Positions 1 through 48,925 of a DNA stretch of 64,000 nucleotides are shown piece by piece. Source of the stretch: Berberis thunbergii. Taxonomy: Eukaryota > Streptophyta > Magnoliopsida > Ranunculales > Berberidaceae. The position numbers were made by a program, and so were the translations under genes. Each line of letters begins with the position of its first letter. Position 1 is the stretch's first letter. The notes below the pieces were generated by a model, which worked only from the letters and a program-made list of their open reading frames with translations, was not told where the DNA came from and did no database searches. Location: the NCBI GenBank assembly GCA_003290165.1, contig QNQO01000225.1, positions 682,001 through 746,000 of the forward strand, written 5' to 3'.

Positions 1-549
1 CAAAAAGCGAAGAGAATACACGAAACTTACTAAGATTCCTGGAACTACGGAAGATCATCTGGCCATCATGGGTGAAGTACCTAGACTTCACAGAAGCATA
101 AAAAAATATAGCTGCCAGTCTTCTGTGTCATCCAACTTGCCATCCAGGAAAGAAGGCTTCTCCAGCCAACAAACACCGAGCTTGTTCATTTTGATGGAGG
201 TAAGAGAATGAACCAGTTTTGTCGACAGACAGAACCCCGCATCCTTCACCCTAATCAAAGTGACAATTAGCATACTCCACCCTCTCTGCGCTATCTGTGT
301 TGCGATAATACCCTGTTAAGATAGTAAATGCCAAATGGAGTCAGAAACAGGGAAGTGCAGGGCGGCCTCAAACATGGCCTTGTATAAGCAAATGAATCCC
401 TCCCTTAAAAAAGTTTGAGACTCGCCCTTCTCAAAAAGCAACAATTCCAGATCATCAGGAACTTCATACCATTGACGGAGGTTGGCTAGGTCCTTCTCTA
501 ACGTCAGCCCCCTAAAAAAGTCAAAGCAAACTGCATAGCGCTCACACAA
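1..549 (-). pseudogene. Extra-ORF fragment of a Tat-like Ty3/gypsy element (gypsy-type putative transposase domain)
   Basis: Two minus-strand open pieces (549-316 and 273-88) read in the order expected for one degraded protein. The upstream piece has VPDDLELLLFEKG followed by GFICLYKAMFEAALHFPV. The downstream piece continues with a LDDTEDWQLYFFML segment. This pattern resembles the plant domain catalogued as 'putative transposase, gypsy type' (PF04195), which occurs in extra ORFs of Tat-lineage retrotransposons rather than in a real transposase. A homologous piece is seen on the minus strand at the right edge of the window (62167-64000). The reading frame is broken between the two pieces and the element continues beyond the left edge. 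I infer a retroelement relic, not a host gene; its function is unknown. Confidence 0.55.
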
Positions 550-779
550 AAAATAAGGTCACGCAGACATGATTGCATGAAGGTTCAAGCTTGGTTAAAC
601 TGGAAAAGCTAAAAAAAATAACAGAAGAAAACTCTGGAAGGTAAAAATATGAAACTCTCCCAAAACAATTTATATAGGCTTGACGCATGGGATAAGTGAC
701 TACCTAATCGTTGCAAAAGCATTAACTATAGAACATTAGCCAAGAAGGCATCGAAATACACCATCATGGCATCACACAT

Positions 780-1405
780 TCCCCCATGCACAATCAGTTA
801 GTAGCCCTATACACAACCCCACTAACTAGGGGAGTAACCGACGAGTCATCAAACAGTCACCCAATCACAACCATACACGTGGTATAGTCCAACCCTAATA
901 TAGAAAGGCCTTAGCGCGGTATCGAGCAGGCCCAAGCATTGTCCAGCTCAGACTCATCCAAGTCACCGTTCAGTCCAGAAGTCAGGTGCCCAACGTGGCA
1001 CAAATCTTGGACTTTGAACTAGGACAATAAGGCCCAAACACAGATTTTTAGGTTATCACAAGCCCAAGATTTATTTTGCATAGCTCTTGATCTAATCAAA
1101 TATTGGGTCCCACACAGAGCCAAGTGTCAGATGTAATTCAGTCATGGATGGGTAAGATCCTCAGCAGGATTTCCTCCCTCCATCATAGCTCGACGTTAGA
1201 GTCAATGAAGGAGTGAAATACTCACTATATAAGGTGAACAAAAGATATGAGAAAAGTACGCACTTCCAATCCAATTTACAGTCTACATCCACCTTTACTC
1301 AGTCATCTGACTTTAGCATCCGAGTGCATTCGACCACCACAAGGGTGGTACTTGGCTCACTACTGTTGTTCATTTTGCATGTCAGGAATTGACAGGGACA
1401 TATTT
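780..1405 (+). repeat. Probable LTR remnant (Tat-like)
   Basis: The layout resembles the better-supported LTR at 48.9-49.6 kb. There is a TATA motif (TATATAAG, 1226-1233), then about 130 bp later a 'ccaccacaagggtggt' fold followed by 'ggctcac' and a caggaattgacaggg-like tail. The other LTR has 'ccaccccacggtgg ... ggctcac ... caggaacaggg' in the same order. It follows an antisense extra ORF, as a 3' LTR of a Tat-like element would. Boundaries are estimates; no target duplication was found. Confidence 0.35.
1226..1233 (+). promoter_or_regulatory. TATA box of the probable LTR
   Basis: TATATAAG in an otherwise mixed-composition stretch, placed where the U3 promoter of the LTR would be. Assignment rests on position and motif only. 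Confidence 0.35.
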
Positions 1406-3061
1406 GGACACATCAGTAACGCTTCCATGCACAATGGGAGATGCTCTAGTTTAAGCTGGTTATCTAGATAGTAGGGGGCTGTAAGGTCGCCTTAGCTTAA
1501 CTCGTACGAAACCTTACCTTTTTTCCATTAAAAAAGACCATTGCATGCAATCTGTTTATGTCGCTTTCCTGGGTCAAGTTCAAATTATCACGACTCCTAG
1601 CCAAAGTGATTCCCCACAAACGTCGAGGCTTGAAAGAAAGTCAAGATAGATCTCTTGGATCAGCATTTGATTGTCATCCTTGTGCTTTTTTCTGTTTGCG
1701 TTTCTTTAAACATCATCCGAAACAGTCGTGAGCCTATACTTCGAATTTTGAAAGCACATGGAAATCTTTTGAAAAAAAGCATCTCAAAACAAATTTTGTG
1801 TGATTTGAGGACCCATATATAAGAGAATCTGATTAAATTATTGGGCTTTCTGTTGCATCCAATACAAGTTTTCGAGTCCGGATATTCTGTCTAGAGATTC
1901 CGTAGTCCATATAGCCCTCAGTGTCCATGGCTCCAGACCCTATCTTCTTTAACAATTTAAACTTTTTTCCGATGCATCGAACCATTGATTTTCACGAGTT
2001 TGGTATGATTCTCGCCCATACAAAGCTGAGACCTTTTCTATTAAAGCACTAGGACTGGTGAGACTCCACCATTAACCATGGGTTCCCAAGGCTTGATGTA
2101 TTATAGATTTGCCTTTTTTCTTATTAGATGATAATTTAACATAAATTACATATAATCCATTCCTGGATTTTCCTTTCTAACACCAGAAAATAAACATAAC
2201 AGTAGCACTATGGGCAAAAAAGTTCCAATATTTTGGAGTTTTAGAGAATTTAGATCATAGACCCAGACAATTTAGTATGTGGACTGGAGAGCTGTAGCAA
2301 GGCAATCCATCATGAAACAAAGAAGAGCAGCAGTTGTGCTGCTGAAAAGGCAATCAAACTAGTCAGGATTTTCTTCCCCGATCCAACACAATCCACTCTT
2401 ATTGCAGATTTTGACAAAAAAAAAAAAAAAAAAACAGGCGGAGTGTTGAGATTTTCCTCGAGCTCTAAGCACAACTATTTGTAGTTCGCTTCTGATTTGG
2501 TTCTCAGGGATTAAAGAGAGATTAGCCATGAATGAATAAATTCTGTTGTTTGAATACAATCAAACAGTTTCTGCATGCATATGAAGATGAACATACGCCA
2601 CAAAGTATAGAGCAACAGCACTACTCCATACTAACTCCATCAGTTGGGATTTCAGTTCAGGTTGAACCTAACAATGTATTCTAGGCAACTCTAAATTTTC
2701 GGACATTAAAGATTAACTAATTAAAATCTGATATGGTTACAGACTGAATCTTGACGTCTGGAATATGCACTCTAAACTCATGACTGGAGATTATTATCGA
2801 TCTTTTGCATGAATGTCCATGTTTGAATCATGAAAGTATTATTTCTTTTTTCTTTAGTTTGGTTTTTCACTGCAATTAATGGAAGTTGTTAGACTCCTAA
2901 AATAACCCTCGTGTTCATGGCTCCATGTAGTTAATTCCATTCAGAAGAGTGAACAAAGCTTAAATTTAAGAAGCCTTTGATGCAAGAAGATAACGCTGTA
3001 GTACTATTACTAAATAGGTAGCTATGTTACAAGCACACTCAAATACATTCCTACAACTACA
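1406..3061. other. Non-coding stretch, no feature recognised
   Basis: No coherent coding region, terminal repeat or RNA gene is visible. It holds a homopolymer A run near 2417-2434 and short ORFs without recognisable domains. It forms the left flank of Pack-CACTA A; the flank base triplet at 3059-3061 is ACA. Confidence 0.5.
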
Positions 3062-3400
3062 CACTACTACAAATATTACCTTAGGTAACGCCACTTAGAT
3101 AACGCTTTTTTAAAGAGCTATCCAAGTGGGCACTAGGATAGCGCTTATTTGTCTTTAAAAAAAAAAATTTTAAAATAAAAAAAAACACTACAATAGCGCT
3201 TTTAATTTTTTTTTTCCAGTTAAGCGCTATCTTAGTTATGTCTTAGATAGCGCTTTAAAAAACGCTATGAGAAAAACCATTACCAAAGCTACCATAGCGC
3301 TTTTAAAGTGCTTGCATAGCGCTTCGAAAGCGCTATGCTAGTTACATTTAGAATAGCGCTTCGGAATATCACTACTATAGCGCTTACATCTTAGTCTACG
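3062..3400. repeat. Left subterminal repeat array of Pack-CACTA A
   Basis: Repeated short motifs in both orientations built on AGCGCTAT / ATAGCGCTT, spaced by A/T-rich runs. The same motif array occurs at the other end (about 9790-10077). In CACTA elements such arrays bind the element's DNA-binding protein and are needed for transposition. Here the function is inferred from position. Confidence 0.85.
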
Positions 3401-3556
3401 TTTCCCACATAAAATTTTTGCAAGCAAACCTAGCCATGGCTGCAATAACACTTCGAGAGGGAGGTCATCTTCCTCATTCTCTTCTAACTCAAAAGCTTCC
3501 CCTGTTTCGCTCTCACTTCCAAACCTCTTTGTAAGTCAATCGTTCGATGGTTTGAG

Positions 3557-4320
3557 ATGGCTGGAAAAGCAATTGGTTCAGTAGCCTCGAAAAAAACCAC
3601 ATCGAGGAGCAGCAAGGTCGGGTTCCAGTTCCCCGTTGGTAGAATCGCTAGATTACTCAAAGTAGGCAAGTATGCAAGCAAGTTTGCGCTGGCGCCCCTA
3701 TCTATCTCGCTGCCGTACTCGAATATTTGGCCATAGAGGTACATTTTTTTATCTGGGGGGCTTTGATTTTGTTGTTTTACGTCATTGTTTTTATCTTGTT
3801 TTGAGAGGAGTTCGATTTTTTGGCCCTAATTTGGTGATTTTTTTGGTTATTTTTTTTATCTTATTTAAATCTGGGTATTTTGTTTCAAGTTTATATCTTT
3901 AGAACCGGGTTGGTTAAGCATGCTTTGATTTTGAATGGGTTTTCATTAGTTTGGTTTTGATTTGCCTTTTGTGCCCTAATTTTTTGATTTTCTGAAACGA
4001 AATTGAATCATGTTTATGTTTACATGGGGTTTGATTGTTTTGGTTTATTTTTATGAAATTGACAATGGACTTTGATTATGGTGCTTAAATTTGTGATTTT
4101 TTGTGAAACAGACTTGAACAATTTTGACCTAATGAATTGGGAATCTAATTTACAATGGGTTTCTTCTTATCAGGTGTTGGAGTTAGCAGGAAAAGCAGCG
4201 AGAGACAACAAGCAATCCAGAATAGTGCTACGACACATACAATTGGCAGTGTGAAATGACGAGGAGTTGAGTAAGTTGTTGGGTGCAATCATTGCCAATC
4301 TTGCTTCATCGGGCTTTCTT
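3557..4320 (+). pseudogene. Captured histone H2A gene fragment, two exons
   Basis: Exon 1 starts at ATG 3557 and gives an H2A-type N-terminus with the motif [13 protein letters not shown], followed after a frame change near 3683-3690 by the H2A alpha-helix segment [16 protein letters not shown] donor site (gag|gtacat) lies at 3738/3739. Exon 2 starts after 'cttatcag' at 4174 and gives [13 protein letters not shown] and RHIQLAV. The next codon, arginine in H2A, is TGA (4252-4254), after which NDEELSKLLG still reads. H2A is about 130-140 residues; the docking domain and C-terminal tail are lost after about 4296. The intron position matches intron-containing plant H2A genes. A frameshift, a nonsense codon and the truncation exclude a functional histone. 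It is the first captured piece inside Pack-CACTA A. Confidence 0.85.
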
Positions 4321-4854
4321 CTTGTCGCTTTTCTTCACTTCACTCAATTTTGTTCACTTCAATCTTCCTCTCTTTCTAAGAATAGTTTTCATTCATATTT
4401 TGAAACAGTGAGTTGATTCGCTCAATAAATGATGACTTAGCCCAGGATTTTAACTCGAGATCTCATTCCGTCGTCCTCCTTGGTGGATTTCAAAGGTAAG
4501 TTTCAGAAATTATGGTTTTTCACTTTAATTTTTATCAGCTGTTGTTTGCTGATTCATTTTCTTTCACGTTCAAAGGTTACGACATTGTTCACTTTGTTTT
4601 GGGAGGATTTGAATAAGTAAACGAAATGTTTTCTTTTACTAACTTCATTCGTTTTGATTCAGAGTGTTTTGTCTTTGTTATTGTTGAATTGAATTCCTTA
4701 CAAATAATGAAAACAAAGAGACTAATTTCTCTACTTTATTTGTTTTTGTTTAGTCTGTTTTGATTTGTTTAGATGCAGAGACCGCTTTCTATTGTTTTAA
4801 TTTTTGAATTTTGGAGTTGAATTGATTCTTAAGTTGCCAAATTTCTTTTATATG

Positions 4855-5010
4855 GAAGCGGGATCGGTTCGAAAACTGATCTGCCAGAGAGATGGAAGGA
4901 AAAAGAAGAGGCGATATTACATGTTTATAACAGAGGAAGATTTGAAACACAGTCCTGAAATGGACACACGTACTTCCGGTAAGGATTTGATTGCCAAGGT
5001 GCTTTTTAAG
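4855..5010 (+). other. Exon-like coding piece, gene not recognised
   Basis: An open plus-strand stretch reads a basic run (GRKKKRRYYMFITEEDL) and a downstream GKDLIAKV, with codon composition more like an exon than the flanking T-rich intron-like DNA. It lies between the H2A and kinesin pieces of Pack-CACTA A and probably comes from another captured gene. I cannot place the parent gene. A second exon-like end with a good donor (CAAAG|gtaag) lies near 4495. Confidence 0.35.
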
Positions 5011-6120
5011 TATTATTTTTGTCGATTTTGATCTTAATTTCCAAATATTTGTTCTTTTCTCTATATTATTTTTGGATGATTATTGTCAAGCTTCTAGCCA
5101 ATTGGTAAACTACTCTAAATCCTTGATACAACCTTAACATTCATCCTAATGGCAAGTTTTGGAGTCAAGGAAGTCACATTCAAAATATAAATACATTGGT
5201 TCTCCCACTTACCCTCTCTAGCAAGAAATCTTGAGATCCTTTACCATATTTTTTGTTGATAATGATCTCACTCAAATAGAGAACTGAAAACACATTCATG
5301 CTCTTGAATATATATTTTGCCAAAAGGTGTGGTTTTTGGTGTGGCATATGGCCTTTTGTTAAGAAGCGACTAGTGTTATGAGGTGCAATGAAGTCGAGGC
5401 TTGGTACATGGAAGTCCAAGGGGGGTAGGCTTACATGGTATCAGTTCTTTTAACCTGTCCACTTACTATGTACCCCTGTCATTTCCTGCTGGAAAGTTGC
5501 AACAAGGATATAAGCTATAAGGAGACCTTAGAGTGGTTCCAAATAGGATGGAAGTTTTATTTTTCTTATGCACATCCCTCGAATATGTGTGGTCCAGTTC
5601 TTTGTCAGAGTATTTTAATATTGGAATATACTTCCTCAAATGGATTTAACATACGGTTAGATAAGAATATAAATATAAAGTGAGATTATGGATGCCATTA
5701 AACATTGTCTGCCTCAGAGTTTTGGGATTTTAGTTGATGGAAACTTTGCTTGAAAACTTCGTCTTAAAATTAGAATGGCTGTCAGAGATGAGGAAATTGA
5801 AGAAGTGTGTATTTAATTGAATACTACCAATACTCTTGGTCTAACAATAAAGAAGACATGGTTTTGGAAGTGGACAAAGGATGGTCTTTTTTTTGGTGCC
5901 ATCATTTAATCCACACATGATGAATAACCTACTTTTACCTATGTTGCTGTTCTAACCTCTAAAGCCACAAAAAGTTCTCATAACGAAACCTTGAGGTAGA
6001 GATCTTTCTATGTCTACTCTTCATTAAATCAGACTCATTTGGTCTGGGCTTTCCTACAAGGTATTTCTGTGGTTTCAGTGTTGTACTGTGGTTGAATCAA
6101 ATTTAACTTTCATAATGTAG

Positions 6121-6590
6121 GGGTTTTCAAATAGAAAGGTTGGGGCAACGAGTATTAACTCCAAGAGCTCTCGTTCTCATATCGTCTTCACTTGTGTAAT
6201 TGAATCCTGGTGCAAGGTATACCACTATAAGTTTATTTTCAGTTGTTACTCACAAGAACCGCTTATTCTGATTTCACTTATAGGGTAGCTTGGTTTATGA
6301 AGTGATTTCATATTTCACTGTGCCTGTGCTGGTTGTTTGGGGCCTGTAGTCCATATTGCTTCTTGTTGTTCCTAATTCAACTTTGTATTTCTATTGCTCC
6401 AAAATTTTTTACAGGGTACCTCGTCAAAAGGCTTTAGTAGGAAGGAACTGCACCCATGGGTGTAGACATAAGCTGTAGAATCAACTTTGTTGATCTTGCT
6501 GGATCAGAGCGAAATAAGCCAGATGATGATGTAGGAAGGCAGAGTGTAAAAGAGGGTAAAAACGTAAAGAAATCTCTAGCACAGCTTGGG
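6121..6590 (+). pseudogene. Captured kinesin motor-domain fragment (KIN-12-like)
   Basis: Exon 6121-6216 begins after an AG acceptor and ends at a GT donor. It encodes 32 residues including the kinesin switch I signature SSRSH in the context [19 protein letters not shown]. The second exon (6415 to about 6590) ends at a gtaag donor and encodes the switch II signature as FVDLAGSERNK, followed by GKNVKKSLAQLG. These are two adjacent core motifs of the microtubule-dependent ATPase motor. The P-loop, neck and stalk are absent. The second exon is interrupted near 6449-6470 by a 22-bp block copied from the neighbouring monooxygenase piece, which puts a stop in frame. Similarity to plant KIN-12 is my judgement from the residues around SSRSH. 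Confidence 0.85.
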
Positions 6591-6639
6591 TAAGATTTCA
6601 GACCACTGTTTGTCTGTTTTCGTGATCATCAAAGAGAAG

Positions 6640-7265
6640 ATGAAATTTAGAGGGATACTTGGGTTTGATAATGGGTTGATGTGTGCACCCATGGGTGTAG
6701 ACATATCTGGACCTGAACTTGTTGCTGCAGTTGCCAACTCCGGTGGTATCGGACTACTTGCCGGCCCCTCTGTATGTTTTTCTTTCATCTCTACTTGTTT
6801 CATTTTGATGACTGTATAGTTTTAAGAACATACGTTGTGTTTGAACAGTATAATTATGATGCAAGAGTGAATGTAGCTTATTTCGATATAGTGGAGTGTG
6901 CAATTGGTATTAGAGTTCTAGCTAAACCTTTGTTGTGTTTGGACCATTTTTGTAGGTGGGATCAGTGAAAGCTGCCGAGAGAGCGATTGCTGCAGGAGTT
7001 GATTGCATTGTGGCCCAAGGTCAAGAGGTTGGGGGTCACGTAGCTGGAAAGGTAAGTCTCCTTCCTTCCGTTGTCCACAGCTCACATTCAAACAAAGGGT
7101 GTGCTTAACATTTTGTGTAGGTTGCTTTGACAGGCCTAGTACCCAGAATAGTTGATTTGGTTGGAGATAGAAACATTCCAGTAGTTGCCGCCGGATCCAT
7201 CAGTGATGGTCGTGGCTATGTTGCTGCACTTTCCCTAGGTGCCAAGGGTATTGTGTGGGAACAAG
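6640..7265 (+). pseudogene. Captured nitronate monooxygenase (2-nitropropane dioxygenase-like) fragment
   Basis: Three exons with canonical splice borders are visible. Exon 1 (6640-6771) starts at ATG and reads FRGILGFDNGLMCAPMGVD then ISGPELVAAVANSGGIGLL, the N-terminal strand of this FMN-dependent TIM-barrel family. Exon 2 (6956-7051) reads AAGVDCIVAQGQEVGGHVAG, which contains the family's phosphate-binding GxExGGH motif. Exon 3 (7121-7265) reads LVPRIVDLVGDRNIPVVAAG and GRGYVAALSLGAKGI. The family oxidises alkyl nitronates to carbonyl compounds. The middle of the barrel between exons 1 and 2 and everything after exon 3 are missing, so this is a partial, non-functional copy. Introns are retained, which excludes a processed pseudogene. 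Confidence 0.85.
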
Positions 7266-7354
7266 GTATGTGATATACCAATGAACATACTGGTTACCAT
7301 TTCCTTGCAATTGATTCCAGCTTGTCGAACTAACTTTAGATCGGTTCATTTAGT

Positions 7355-7501
7355 TACAACAATGGGGTAAGATCCCCAAGTGTAGAGCAGATTCAGAGAA
7401 TCTCGGCGAGGTTACGACAGTATGGGAAGATTGAAGGCAAGAATGTTTTCTATTGGTTTCAGAATCATAAAGCCAGAGAAAGGCAGAAGATCTATAAATG
7501 A
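7355..7501 (+). pseudogene. Captured WUSCHEL-type homeobox fragment
   Basis: An uninterrupted 48-codon stretch encodes the second half of a WOX homeodomain. It reads [20 protein letters not shown], then [19 protein letters not shown], then ERQK, ending at TGA 7499-7501. The YNNGVRSP loop and [12 protein letters not shown] recognition helix are hallmarks of the WUS clade of plant homeodomain transcription factors, which control stem-cell identity in meristems. Helix 1, the WUS box and the EAR motif are missing. The piece is bounded by unrelated captured sequence and has no start codon of its own. It is too short to act alone but could be read as part of a chimeric transcript of Pack-CACTA A. 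Confidence 0.85.
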
Positions 7502-7753
7502 TTATTTTCTACTATTTCCAGTTAAGTGATTCATCTCAGGATCTAGTCAATGTCTGATCATCTAATTTTGTCTTTAAGAACTGTGCATATTACAGATTCA
7601 TCTATTGCTACTGACATATTACATAGATGAGCATTAGATCCATCCCAAAACTCAGAAACAATGCCCTTCTTTTTGTTGCAGATCTGGAAAATATGGGGGA
7701 AGTAGCACCATCAAAATAGACTCTGAATTACAAAGTCACAAATTCTCAATGTT

Positions 7754-7836
7754 GATGCTAATGGGGTTCCATCCAAGACACAAGATGCAGTGATGGAGTG
7801 ATGCTAATGGGATTCCATCCAAGACACAAGATGCAG
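7754..7836 (+). repeat. 37-bp segment duplicated in tandem (46-bp period)
   Basis: A segment reading gatgctaatgg(g/g)ttccatcc... occurs at 7754-7790 and again at 7800-7836 with one visible difference. It lies between the homeobox and demethylase pieces of Pack-CACTA A and looks like a small duplication made during repair. Confidence 0.75.
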
Positions 7837-8004
7837 CCAAGTGAGCACTCAGCATTCGTTATTGAAACATGCATGTGCTTAACAATTTAGTCACTGATCT
7901 TTTATTTTCTCGTCTTTCAGCTTTGCAAACAGGTTGACGCATATCAAAGAGAATCACAAATTTCAAAAAGATTGTAAAGAGGTTCATAGAGAAGAGGATT
8001 CAGC

Positions 8005-8387
8005 AAAGGGGTTCGCACATATTGTCTTGAACATGCTGTGGAAGTAGAAAAACAGCTCCGGCCTGTTGGTGGAGCAATTATGCTACTCCTTTGTCATCCG
8101 GGTGAGTTGTTGGTACAATGTGTTTGATTTGCTCTCCTCATTTAATCTTTCTTTTACTTGTTGTGTTTTCATAAATGTAACCTCTTAGCCAACTTCAAGT
8201 TCTCTTTCCTGATGTTCAATGTTACATGGTTTTCTTGTGTTGACATTTTCAGAGTATCCTAAAGTGGAAGCAGAAGCAAAACTGTTGGCAGAAGAGTTGG
8301 GAATTGATTATGATTGGAATGACATTTTATTTAAAGAAGCTAATAAAGAGGAACAAGAAATTATTAGAGCAGCTTTGGATGACGAGG
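8005..8387 (+). pseudogene. Captured REF6/ELF6-type JmjC histone demethylase fragment
   Basis: The first exon piece (about 8005-8101) reads VRTYCLEHAVEVEKQLRPVG then MLLLCHP, and ends at a gtgagt donor. The second (8253-8387, after ttttcag) reads EYPKVEAEAKLLAEELGIDY then WNDILFKEANKEEQE and AALDDE. Joining the two restores an in-frame HPEYPK across the splice. These match the region downstream of the JmjC domain in plant REF6/ELF6/JMJ705-type H3K27 or H3K4 demethylases, where a conserved CLEHAVE...LLLCHPEYPK block precedes the zinc fingers. The catalytic JmjC domain and zinc fingers are absent. Codons run directly into UDP-glucose dehydrogenase sequence at about 8386, but in a different frame, so the chimera stops at TGA 8402-8404. 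Confidence 0.8.
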
Positions 8388-9645
8388 CCTTGATGATGTT
8401 GTGAAGCAGTGCAGAGGGAAGAACCTCTTCTTCAGCACCCATGTTGAGAAACATGTTGCAGAGGCTGATATCATCTTTGTCTCAGTCAACACCCCAACCA
8501 AGACTCGAGGTCTTGGGGCAGGCAAAGCTGCTGATCTCACCTACTGGGAGAGTGCCACTCGCATGATTGCAGATGTCGCCAAATTTGACAAGATTGTGGT
8601 TGAGAAATCCACTGTCCCAGTGAAAACAGCTGAGGCCATCGAAAAGATCCTCATGCACAACAGCAAGGGAATCAACTTTCACATTCTTTCTAACCCAGAG
8701 TTCCTTGCAGAAGGAACTGCAATTGAAGATCTCTTCAAGCCCGACCGCGTGCTCATTGGTGGCCGGGAGACCCCTGAGGGCCAGAAAGCTATCAATGCCT
8801 TGAAAGATGTGTACGCCAATTGGGTGCCTGAGGATAGAATTATATGCACCAACCTCTGGTCTGCAGAGCTTTCGAAGCTTGCTGCGAATGCTTTCTTGGC
8901 CCAGAGAATCTCCTCTGTCAATGCCATGTCAGCTCTTTGTGAAGCAACGGGTGCAGATGTTGCTCAGGTTGCCCATGCAGTTGGCAAGGACACCAGAATC
9001 GGACCCAAGTTTTTGAATGCTAGTGTTGGTTTTGGAGGTTCATGCTTTCAGAAGGATATTCTCAATCTTGTCTACATCTGTGAATGCAATGGCCTCCCTG
9101 AAGTTGCCAACTACTAGAAACAAGTCATCAAGATCAATGACTATCAAAAGACTCGGTTTGTTAACCGTGTGGTATCCTCCATGTTCAACACTGTTTCAGG
9201 GAAGAAGATTGTTGTGCTCGGATTTGCATTCAAGAAGGACACCGGTGACACTAGGGAGACCCCCGCAATTGATGTCTGCAAGGGGTTGATTGGGGATGGC
9301 GCCCGCATCAGCATCTATGATCCACAGGTCAATGAGGACCAGATTCAGAGGGATCTGACACTGAAAAAGTTCGATTGGGACCACCCTCTTCACCTCCAGC
9401 CAATGAGCCCCAACTCTGTGAAGCAAGTGAACGTTGTTTGGGATGCTTACTCAGCCACAAAGGATGCCCATGGTATCTGCATTCTCACTGAATGGGATGA
9501 GTTCAAGACTCTTGATTACCAAAAGATCTATGATAACATGCAGAAGCCTGCTTTTGTGTTCGATGGGCGCAATGTCGTGAATGCAGAAAAGCTAAGGGAG
9601 ATTGGATTCATTGTGTACTATAAACATATTAACAATTTTGTATGA
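8386..9645 (+). pseudogene. Captured UDP-glucose 6-dehydrogenase, N-terminally truncated with one stop
   Basis: The largest captured piece covers roughly 415 of the about 480 residues of plant UDP-glucose dehydrogenase, the enzyme that makes UDP-glucuronate for cell-wall polysaccharides. Reading begins [16 protein letters not shown] and retains VSVNTPTKT, the catalytic-loop motif [11 protein letters not shown] with its cysteine, and GFAFKKDTGDTRETPAIDV of the C-terminal UDP-binding domain. The N-terminal NAD-binding GxGYVG segment is missing. A single nonsense codon (TAG, 9115-9117) replaces the tryptophan expected after VANY; otherwise the frame is open to about 9624. The ending diverges after GFIVY. 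Plant UGD coding regions usually lack introns, so capture from DNA or cDNA cannot be told apart. The high conservation suggests recent capture. It is not a functional gene, but transcripts could pair with those of the true UGD. Confidence 0.9.
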
Positions 9646-9789
9646 ATGCTTAAATTATATTTTGAATGAATGAGAAACAGTTAGTTATTATGTTGTGTCT
9701 TTATTGATTGATTGAACGTTGTCATTATTATATTAAATATTATATTTAGCCCAGAAAATCGGGTATCGAAAAAATAGAAAAAACAAATC

Positions 9790-10077
9790 AAATAACGCTC
9801 ATCAAAGCGCTATTGAACCTAATTAAAAAAAAATCAACAAAATTAAATAGCGCTCATCAAAGCGCTATTCAAGCTAATTTAAAAAAAAAATTAGCGCTTA
9901 CATAGCGCTTTCTAAGGCGCTATTGAAGTTAATTAAAAAAAAAATCAACGCTTAGATAGCGCTTAATAAAGCGCTATCTAACGAAGCGCTATTCAAGTAC
10001 GCGCCTTGCATAGCGCCTTTTTGAGCGCTATCTAAGCCTATTTTTAAGCGCTATGCAAGCCTATATTTGTAGTAGTG
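9790..10077. repeat. Right subterminal repeat array of Pack-CACTA A
   Basis: Dense AGCGCTAT/ATAGCGCT motifs separated by A-rich spacers, ending in the terminal inverted repeat ATATTTGTAGTAGTG. It mirrors the left array at 3062-3400. Confidence 0.85.
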
Positions 10078-10136
10078 ACAACTACTACTATTGTTCCTAA
10101 CAATGTTACACTGATCTGATATTACATACTTCACTC

Positions 10137-10415
10137 TTAAGTAACAACAATCTGCATGCCCAAACTAGTCTTGGCAAACTTAACAAGGCGTTCGATTTCA
10201 TCATCCTCGATATACCCGTTGCCATTCAAGTCTGCAGTCCATAGTCCATATAGGCTCTTCCAAGTGGTGAACGATGCACCACGACTACAGATAGTTGTTT
10301 GTAACTCTTCTCTACTTATTCGCCCATCGCCATCCTTATCAAACTGCTTCAGCCACTTCTTGAACTCCTCAACCTTCATCTCTCTCTTGGGTTTGCCAAG
10401 CTTCCTGATGGCCAT
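10137..10415 (-). CDS. Small two-EF-hand calcium-binding protein (calmodulin-like)
   Basis: A single-exon ORF of 92 codons on the minus strand. EF-hand 1 lies at about residues 26-37 (DKDGDGRISREE, all calcium ligands in canonical positions) and EF-hand 2 at about 62-73 (DLNGNGYIEDDE, also canonical). The N-terminus REMKVEEFKKWLKQF and the inter-hand tryptophan-containing linker match a known group of short plant EF-hand proteins of about 90 residues. It probably acts as a calcium sensor or buffer in the cytosol or nucleus; no signal peptide or membrane segment is seen. A TATA motif lies about 85 bp upstream. The gene starts only about 60 bp from the end of Pack-CACTA A, so that element inserted just downstream of its stop codon. 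This is the only clearly intact host gene in the window. Confidence 0.85.
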   Translation of the reverse strand: MAIRKLGKPKREMKVEEFKKWLKQFDKDGDGRISREELQTTICSRGASFTTWKSLYGLWTADLNGNGYIEDDEIERLVKFAKTSLGMQIVVT

Positions 10416-31639: not shown

Positions 31640-31990
31640 AAAAAAAAAATTTGCAACGACTTAAAACCGTGGCTAAATATTGCAACGGCTCAGAACCGTG
31701 GCTAAAGCTTTTGCAACAGCTTAGAACCGTGGCTAGGAGTTGCAACAGTTTTAAGCCGTGGCTATTCCTGCCCACGGCTTAAAACCGTGGCTAACATGTT
31801 TGCAACGGTTTATAACCGTGGCTAAATCATCAACCGTCCTCGAGCATAAAACCGTTGCTAACATGTTTGCCACGGTTTTTAGCCGTTACCGGGGATTTAG
31901 CAACGCCTCTACAGCCCACTGCTCTAAGCCGTGACAATGGGTTACCCCCAAGGTTTAAAACCGTTGCTAATGGGCATTTTTGGTGTAGTG
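31640..31990. repeat. Right subterminal repeat array of Pack-CACTA B
   Basis: More than ten units of GCAACGGCTTAAAACCGTGG type in both orientations run up to the terminus TTTTGGTGTAGTG. Confidence 0.88.
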
Positions 31991-48434: not shown

Positions 48435-48925
48435 GAGTGGCGGTCGCATGGCGAGCCATCTAGGGTTCCCACCTTCCAAACCATTTATGCCTGAGCAAAG
48501 TGGACTATAGGTTTGGGATGCAAGGATTTGGCTATCATGGTCTATTTGAAGAGAAATGATCCTGTGGCAAGGCATCGACATCAGTTCGGGACTAACTAGT
48601 ATCCCACCTTTCAAACCATCTACACCACGTAGCAGGCTACAAGTTTGAGACAAGGGGGTTTAGCGACCGTGCTAAATAGCAGTGGTTCCGTGGCGAGGCA
48701 TCGATATCAATTTGGGACTTACTAGTCTCCCACCTTTCAAACCATCTACCCCGCACGTAGCAGGCTACAAGTTTGAGACGAGGGGGTTCGGCGACCACGC
48801 TGAAGAGCAATGGTCTCATGGCAAGCCGTCGGAATCAATTCAGGACTGACTAGGCTCCCACCTTCGAAATCATCTACACCCATGCGCATCGAGCTACAAA
48901 CTTGAGAGTTTTCGGCGACTGATGA
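48435..48925 (+). repeat. Tandem repeat, about four copies of 126-135 bp
   Basis: The anchor CCCACCTTTCAAACCATCTA recurs at 48468, 48603, 48729 and 48857 with increasing divergence in the outer copies. Each unit also has 'gcgaccgtgctaaatagcagtggttccgtggcgaggcatcga'-type sequence in the same order. The array ends where the probable LTR begins. Tandem repeats next to an LTR are a known property of Tat-lineage elements. Confidence 0.85.

Follow-up and report, generated by a model that had tools for sequence, protein, structure and literature searches.

Several kinds of transposon are known to take up pieces of host genes. In soybean, the non-autonomous CACTA element Tgm-Express1 (5.7 kb) carries five unrelated host fragments with introns, all of which are joined by splicing as exons of a single F3H transcript (PMC1947982). 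Their common splicing implies that these fragments share one orientation, a point that the available passages of that report do not state. Pack-TYPE and Pack-CACTA elements combine conserved terminal parts with newer internal cargo, and fused AB and BB elements as well as same-orientation local insertions are described among them (PMC8903248, PMC13317346). The Tpn1 family of Ipomoea comprises CACTA-type, mostly non-autonomous elements, in which internal parts are replaced by host genic regions and from which chimeric transcripts are reported (PMC5105172). Moreover, maize Helitrons capture several host gene fragments in a stepwise manner (PMC3288121). It is thus already published that CACTA elements capture genes, that one element can bring together sense-spliced pieces from several donors and that neighbouring elements fuse. 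Here, we analyze a stretch of 64,000 nucleotides from Berberis thunbergii (contig QNQO01000225.1, forward strand, 682,001 to 746,000; hereafter the window, whose coordinates are used unless a locus is named), in which positions 3062-10077 are a non-autonomous Pack-CACTA element. The new part is that its cargo, and that of its relatives, is sense-only across a family as far as the pieces can be named.

The Berberis element resembles Tgm-Express1 in being a non-autonomous CACTA element with multiple donors, introns and co-oriented pieces, and differs from it in its donors and its subterminal repeats. Unlike Tgm-Express1 as it appears in those passages, it is one of many layouts that share their 5' end and include a hybrid, it has donors at ~99% identity, and it is known here from sequence alone. 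With Pack-TYPE and Pack-CACTA elements it shares terminal conservation, newer internal cargo, fusions and co-oriented local insertions, and with Tpn1 the CACTA-type, non-autonomous make-up with host genic cargo. In the passages concerned, the Pack-TYPE literature (PMC8903248, PMC13317346) does not report the orientation of cargo relative to the element, and the account of Tpn1 (PMC5105172) does not state it family-wide, whereas in the Berberis group it is reported here as sense for 10/10 named genes. Searches of an open-access library brought up no account of how cargo is oriented throughout a Pack-CACTA family. Maize Helitrons, which have neither terminal inverted repeats (TIRs) nor a target-site duplication, belong to another transposon class, and the Berberis element, with CACTA TIRs and a 3-bp duplication, falls outside that definition.

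Captured genes and their orientation

Five donors of the window element are named by database tools. The first is a frameshifted histone H2A piece (3557-4330, plus strand; intron 3739-4173) with a plant H2A match at 6.9e-44, Pfam alone giving only 0.0024, under the cut-off. It is followed by a kinesin motor-domain piece (6121-6590, plus strand; intron 6217-6414; Pfam 1.5e-19), to which the closest solved motor is KIF15, and by a nitronate monooxygenase (NMO) piece (6640-7270, plus strand; introns 6772-6955 and 7052-7120; Pfam 2.7e-20). A WUS/WOX-type homeodomain piece (7355-7498, plus strand) matches the Pfam homeodomain at 1.2e-9 and the WUSCHEL homeodomain at 6.6e-23, and a UDP-glucose 6-dehydrogenase (UGD) piece with one stop (8386-9619, plus strand) contains three Pfam UGD domains and matches the PDB at 5.9e-153. 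A further piece at 7921-8385 (plus strand), which we take to be REF6/ELF6-like, gave no match in Pfam, the PDB or a large protein collection (65 candidates, none at E 0.001). Of the six donors in the original prediction, five therefore stand as tool-named, and the sixth, REF6/ELF6, is a tentative identification. Ahead of the REF6-like piece lies a tandem duplication with a period of ~46 bp (7753-7836), the copy structure of which varies between family members.

As first proposed, all cargo pieces in the window lie on the plus strand, sense to each other, and introns are retained in the H2A, kinesin, NMO and REF6-like pieces. The captured pieces bear frameshifts or stops. Across the 11 distinct insertion sites of this form (see below), all 13 splice dinucleotides that we chose are intact in every copy (13/13 in 11/11), but the number of changes expected by chance is just 1.4, so the intact sites are uninformative on selection, and we rejected a reading of selection from them. 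Poly(A)-signal counts in one copy gave nothing useful.

Relatives of the element were reached solely through the shared H2A piece, within one genome. The H2A query returned 655 first-look candidates in the assembly, of which the 40 that were scored lie at 94-99%; eleven relatives were fetched in addition to L026-L028. Among those read, six cargo layouts can be told apart (layout coordinates are those of the 'full' element at L009). Layout A is the window form. Layout B (L026, L027, L033, L034) is A-like to 5720 without 2657-3123, carries a CAAD/CURT1-type piece among others and ends in an A-type tail. Layout C (L029, L041) is A-like to 2917 and continues with a BSK1-TPR piece; L029 also has a DEAD-box helicase C-terminal piece and an A-type tail. 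Layout D (L028, L031, L032, L036) is A-like to ~2170, followed by a K+ transporter piece and a different 3' end, and layout F (L035) is A-like to 1777, beyond which it has a RanBP zinc-finger piece and a 3' end resembling that of D. Finally, layout E (L030, L040, L042) joins a C prefix to a D suffix at one breakpoint (C to position 3422 of L029, then D from 2681) and occurs at two loci, L030 and L040/L042, the flanks of which are unrelated. In the larger group, the 5' end is constant (TIR, subterminal repeats, H2A and what follows it), the 3' end is of two kinds and the cargo between them varies.

The original prediction proposed comparing sense orientation across family members, and the relatives agree with the window. 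With each gene counted once, tool-named cargo in the window element and four relatives is sense in 10/10 cases and antisense in none: H2A, kinesin, NMO, homeodomain and UGD in the window, and BSK1-TPR, helicase, K+ transporter, CAAD and RanBP zinc finger in the relatives. Ten alike have a two-sided probability of 2 x 0.5^10 = 0.002 if captures are independent and unbiased; the window's five alone give 0.06. For L029, L031, L033 and L035, the scan took in both strands of the variable part, in segments of >=24 residues. The plus strand yields five families at E < 2e-5, and the minus strand, scanned apart from one 26-residue segment of L029, only a sub-threshold defensin match at 0.022. BSK1-TPR passes the cut-off as a chosen segment and falls just under it in the whole-strand scan (39.3 vs 42.2 bits). 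In the window, minus frames were scanned whole, and plus frames as chosen segments plus the unassigned stretches.

Three stretches of layout B stand outside the count of ten: a weak GH1 match (0.0043, under the cut-off), which is gone in the whole-strand scan, and two stretches without a database match that we take to be SNF7-like and CACTA-ORF-like. Before the common tail of L033, layout B keeps a sense open stretch (7200-7524) ending in FISWPKKLV, presumably akin to a plant CACTA-protein domain, with no Pfam match.

The sense-only pattern hints that gene pick-up is filtered or steered. The original description of six co-oriented donors in 7 kb as unusual is right as to several co-oriented donors, and the word itself needs tempering because Tgm-Express1, as far as the passages on it go, is a precedent (PMC1947982).

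A recently amplified CACTA element

The complete CACTA diagnostics claimed for the window element are present. Its 5' TIR, CACTACTACAAATAT (3062-3076, plus strand), recurs as the exact reverse complement at 10063-10077 (minus strand), with 15/15 bases inverted-identical, and the target-site duplication ACA stands on both sides (3059-3061 and 10078-10080). The subterminal arrays comprise AGCGCT-type repeats at the 5' end (3077-3400, plus strand), which are common to all relatives read, as is the H2A piece, and 55-bp units at the 3' end (9750-10062, plus strand). These two subterminal regions hold 19/23 of the AGCGCT motifs in the window. An A/T-rich tail past the UGD junction (9620-9790, plus strand) is also found in B and C relatives at 96-97%. 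On the other haplotype (L020, contig C2950), the same locus is uninterrupted and has a single ACA, with flank identities of 98.8% over 407 bp and 97.5% over 202 bp; this empty site indicates a clean insertion.

In keeping with the predicted lack of a transposase, no Pfam family of any kind, transposase domains included, rises above its cut-off either in the complete set of minus frames of 3400-9750 or in the plus frames of ~4270-6220 that had no assignment; a DUF6055 match at 0.014 lies under its cut-off. The element thus pairs host gene fragments from five tool-named donors with no transposase match, as in Pack-CACTA elements, and like them it is multicopy, with at least 18 copies and donor genes elsewhere (UGD on C203, likely NMO on C6997).

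Form A has at least 18 copies in the 2.24-Gb assembly that includes the window (G000), a lower bound, with 21 of 4492 first-look candidates scored. From 20 fetched loci, of which L026, L027 and L028 turned out to have layouts B, B and D, we obtained seventeen form A copies besides that of the window, together representing 11 distinct sites. Both TIRs are perfect in 14/17 of these other copies and have <=1 mismatch each in 15/17; likewise, both ends enclose the same contents in 15/17, the remaining two being without the 5' end. A perfect 3-bp duplication flanks 9/11 distinct sites, the exceptions being L021, where it is mismatched (ATA/TAG), and L019/L024, where the 5' end is lost.

Form A is recently amplified. 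Pairwise divergence between the 11 distinct sites, leaving out L025 (same site as L010) and other same-site copies, is 0.69-1.41%, with no clear substructure, and each copy lies 0.37-0.82% from the consensus. Plant sequences change at ~6.5e-9 substitutions per site per year, and at this rate the spread of form A would be roughly 0.5-1 million years old.

Some sites were met more than once across contigs (TGC five times, ATT and ATG twice each, and L019/L024), indicating that the assembly retains haplotypes or segmental copies. The five copies at the TGC site lie on C11714, C3900 (two copies), C2071 and C11056 of G000, one pair being separated by 18 kb on a single contig, and this insertion has multiplied through segmental duplication or haplotype retention. 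L025, a TGC-site copy, is unusually diverged (1.3-2.3%).

The window copy is atypical of form A. It alone has a deletion of ~530 bp with GTG microhomology at 6624/6625, where, from copy coordinates, 15/17 other copies retain 528-531 bp and two retain 453 and 302 bp. Also private to it is a 22-bp filler at 6449-6470 (plus strand), which replaces six bases of the kinesin exon with a copy of positions 6684-6705 of the NMO piece. The deletion and the NMO-templated filler look like scars of break repair; the 22-bp repeat was also considered as a family-wide capture scar and rejected, being private to this copy.

An EF-hand (calmodulin-like) gene lies beside the window copy at 10118-10400, and the L020 copy sits inside its coding end. 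When insertion sites were checked for open frames, only this site was readable. At L036, a D-layout element (98-4214) is followed ~400 bp on by an A-type 3' end (4623-4895) in the opposite orientation, so that two layouts are neighbours there. Elsewhere in the window, a tandem repeat of a 29-bp unit at 31646-31827, with a consensus containing GCAACGGCTTAAAACCGTGGCT, is matched at 85% by a flank of the family copy L012, the flanks of L028 and L034 being similar in translation, and a 128-bp unit is repeated 2.6 times at 48547-48877.

Donor genes

The search for parent loci that was proposed with the original prediction was productive for UGD and NMO. The UGD piece matches C203 and C6693 at 99%, and a paralogue on C214/C6763 at 95%. 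On C203, locus L037 has an intact 480-aa UGD frame, and window 8386-9619 corresponds to bases 202-1435 of that stretch (98.9% over 1234 bp, gap-free), with both capture junctions exon-internal. Compared with the donor, the 11 copies have 10 changes common to >=9 copies (7 synonymous, 3 non-synonymous), and the other variable sites comprise 10 synonymous, 40 non-synonymous and 4 stop changes. These changes look neutral; the captured UGD appears to be decaying as a pseudogene that has drifted freely since capture, with no sign of working as a protein, and a coding function was rejected.

For NMO, the likely donor is a candidate gene at L039 (C6997), which matches at 98.8-98.9% and has an extra stretch of 290 bp that is also kept in L023. 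In the NMO search, C253, C44 and C5277 resemble C6997, and C1919 (L038) reaches ~96%. The captured NMO stretch begins ~320 bp before the presumed start codon. The H2A donor search gave a scored list that was taken up by family relatives. None of the element's other pieces turned up in the 1.7 kb surrounding each of three donor loci, so the pieces do not lie next to each other outside a CACTA element there. DNA-level capture is favored by the retained introns, by the NMO stretch starting upstream of the presumed start codon and by the exon-internal UGD junctions.

Assembly of the cargo

We consider it probable that this amplified Pack-CACTA group gains cargo stepwise at the DNA level, through neighbour fusion and repair, and that antisense cargo is filtered out in it, the filter being the less certain part. 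Nearby copies would be joined through aberrant excision or gap repair, such that a fused element would consist of one copy's 5' stretch, intervening host DNA and another copy's 3' end. Break repair with template jumps would continue to remodel the copies, and the transposase would be supplied from elsewhere. With regard to the filter, the element may be read from its 5' side, in which case antisense pieces could give rise to double-stranded RNA that targets the donor gene, so that both would be silenced and such elements weeded out. Prefix sharing, close insertions and the hybrid layout E, which combines a 5' part of C with a 3' part of D, fit the published neighbour-fusion model as given in the passages at hand (PMC8903248). 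Furthermore, the A-type tail is kept at different lengths in B, A and C, as expected from separate events. Matching 3-bp duplications flank L028, L029, L032, L033, L034 and L035, and L031 has CGA/TGA.

Several observations weigh against this account. L030 is without a matching duplication, and the other layout E copies, L040 and L042, were examined excluding their 5' ends. The window and L020 copies lie 107 bp apart in the same orientation on two haplotypes and diverge by 1.02%, the same as between unrelated copies; they are hence two independent close insertions, co-oriented neighbours on different haplotypes and not a fused pair. The only neighbour pairs seen are this one and L036, with its inverted second end, and neither surrounds a donor gene. 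In the sole clear genic insertion, L020, the element runs antisense to the EF-hand gene, as does the copy beside that gene in the window, and insertion therefore shows no general preference for the sense direction. Additionally, antisense capture by a CACTA element is in print, in the form of a PPR piece in grapevine Cactavine-5 described in the accessible part of that report (PMC2528002).

Tentatively, and with slightly more doubt than conviction, the group may be seen as a cassette, in which transcription is driven by the 5' end and closed by the 3' end and only sense pieces are kept, either because antisense ones would silence essential donors such as H2A and UGD or because fusion or insertion is direction-biased. 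The group would then amount to an exon shuffler that works in one direction and numbers hundreds of members in a single genome.

The main rival to an antisense filter is an orientation bias built into capture itself. If insertion or excision had a preferred direction relative to transcription, same-way fusion would always give sense cargo and selection would be unneeded. Local same-family Pack-TYPE pairs are mostly co-oriented (12/15 hAT and 12/13 PIF in the passages available; PMC8903248), as are the window and L020 copies. However, the published pairs compare element with element, not element with gene, and the antisense position relative to the EF-hand gene and the opposite orientation of the second end at L036 do not suit such a bias, which we judge unlikely, if still to be taken seriously. 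Chance is a weaker contender. Independent captures could all be sense by accident, given a small sample of six layouts and ten tool-named genes from a single genome, all picked via the shared 5' end and H2A; yet 10/10 has a probability of only 0.002 under a fair coin, and the same library was run against the antisense strand, making coincidence improbable.

A transcribed or replicating intermediate, as the original prediction suggested, fares worse still. If nascent pre-mRNA were copied during break repair, or by a retrotransposon reverse transcriptase, the cargo would be sense and intron-bearing, accounting for orientation and introns together. Against this, the NMO homology begins upstream of the presumed start codon, the exon-internal UGD junctions have no poly(A) or transcript-end pattern, and the hybrid and prefix-sharing layouts require DNA fusion anyway; introns and fusion-like relatives fit DNA-level capture, and we find RNA-templated capture very improbable. 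Lastly, an ordinary gene cluster between two unrelated CACTA ends, for which no supporting point was found, is refuted to the point of near impossibility by the empty site in L020, by dispersed copies with both ends around the same contents at distinct sites with distinct duplications, and by UGD and NMO donors on separate contigs.

Implications

Why captured gene pieces are arranged as they are inside transposons is an unsettled question. In this group, the orientation side of that question becomes testable, owing to its young age, common 5' end, readable capture order, donors at ~99% and several hundred relatives. Should the sense-only rule fail, the group would be a well-resolved but ordinary Pack-CACTA family. 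If the rule is true, orientation would be filtered or imposed, and these elements would be a source of chimeric, spliceable exons that all point one way.

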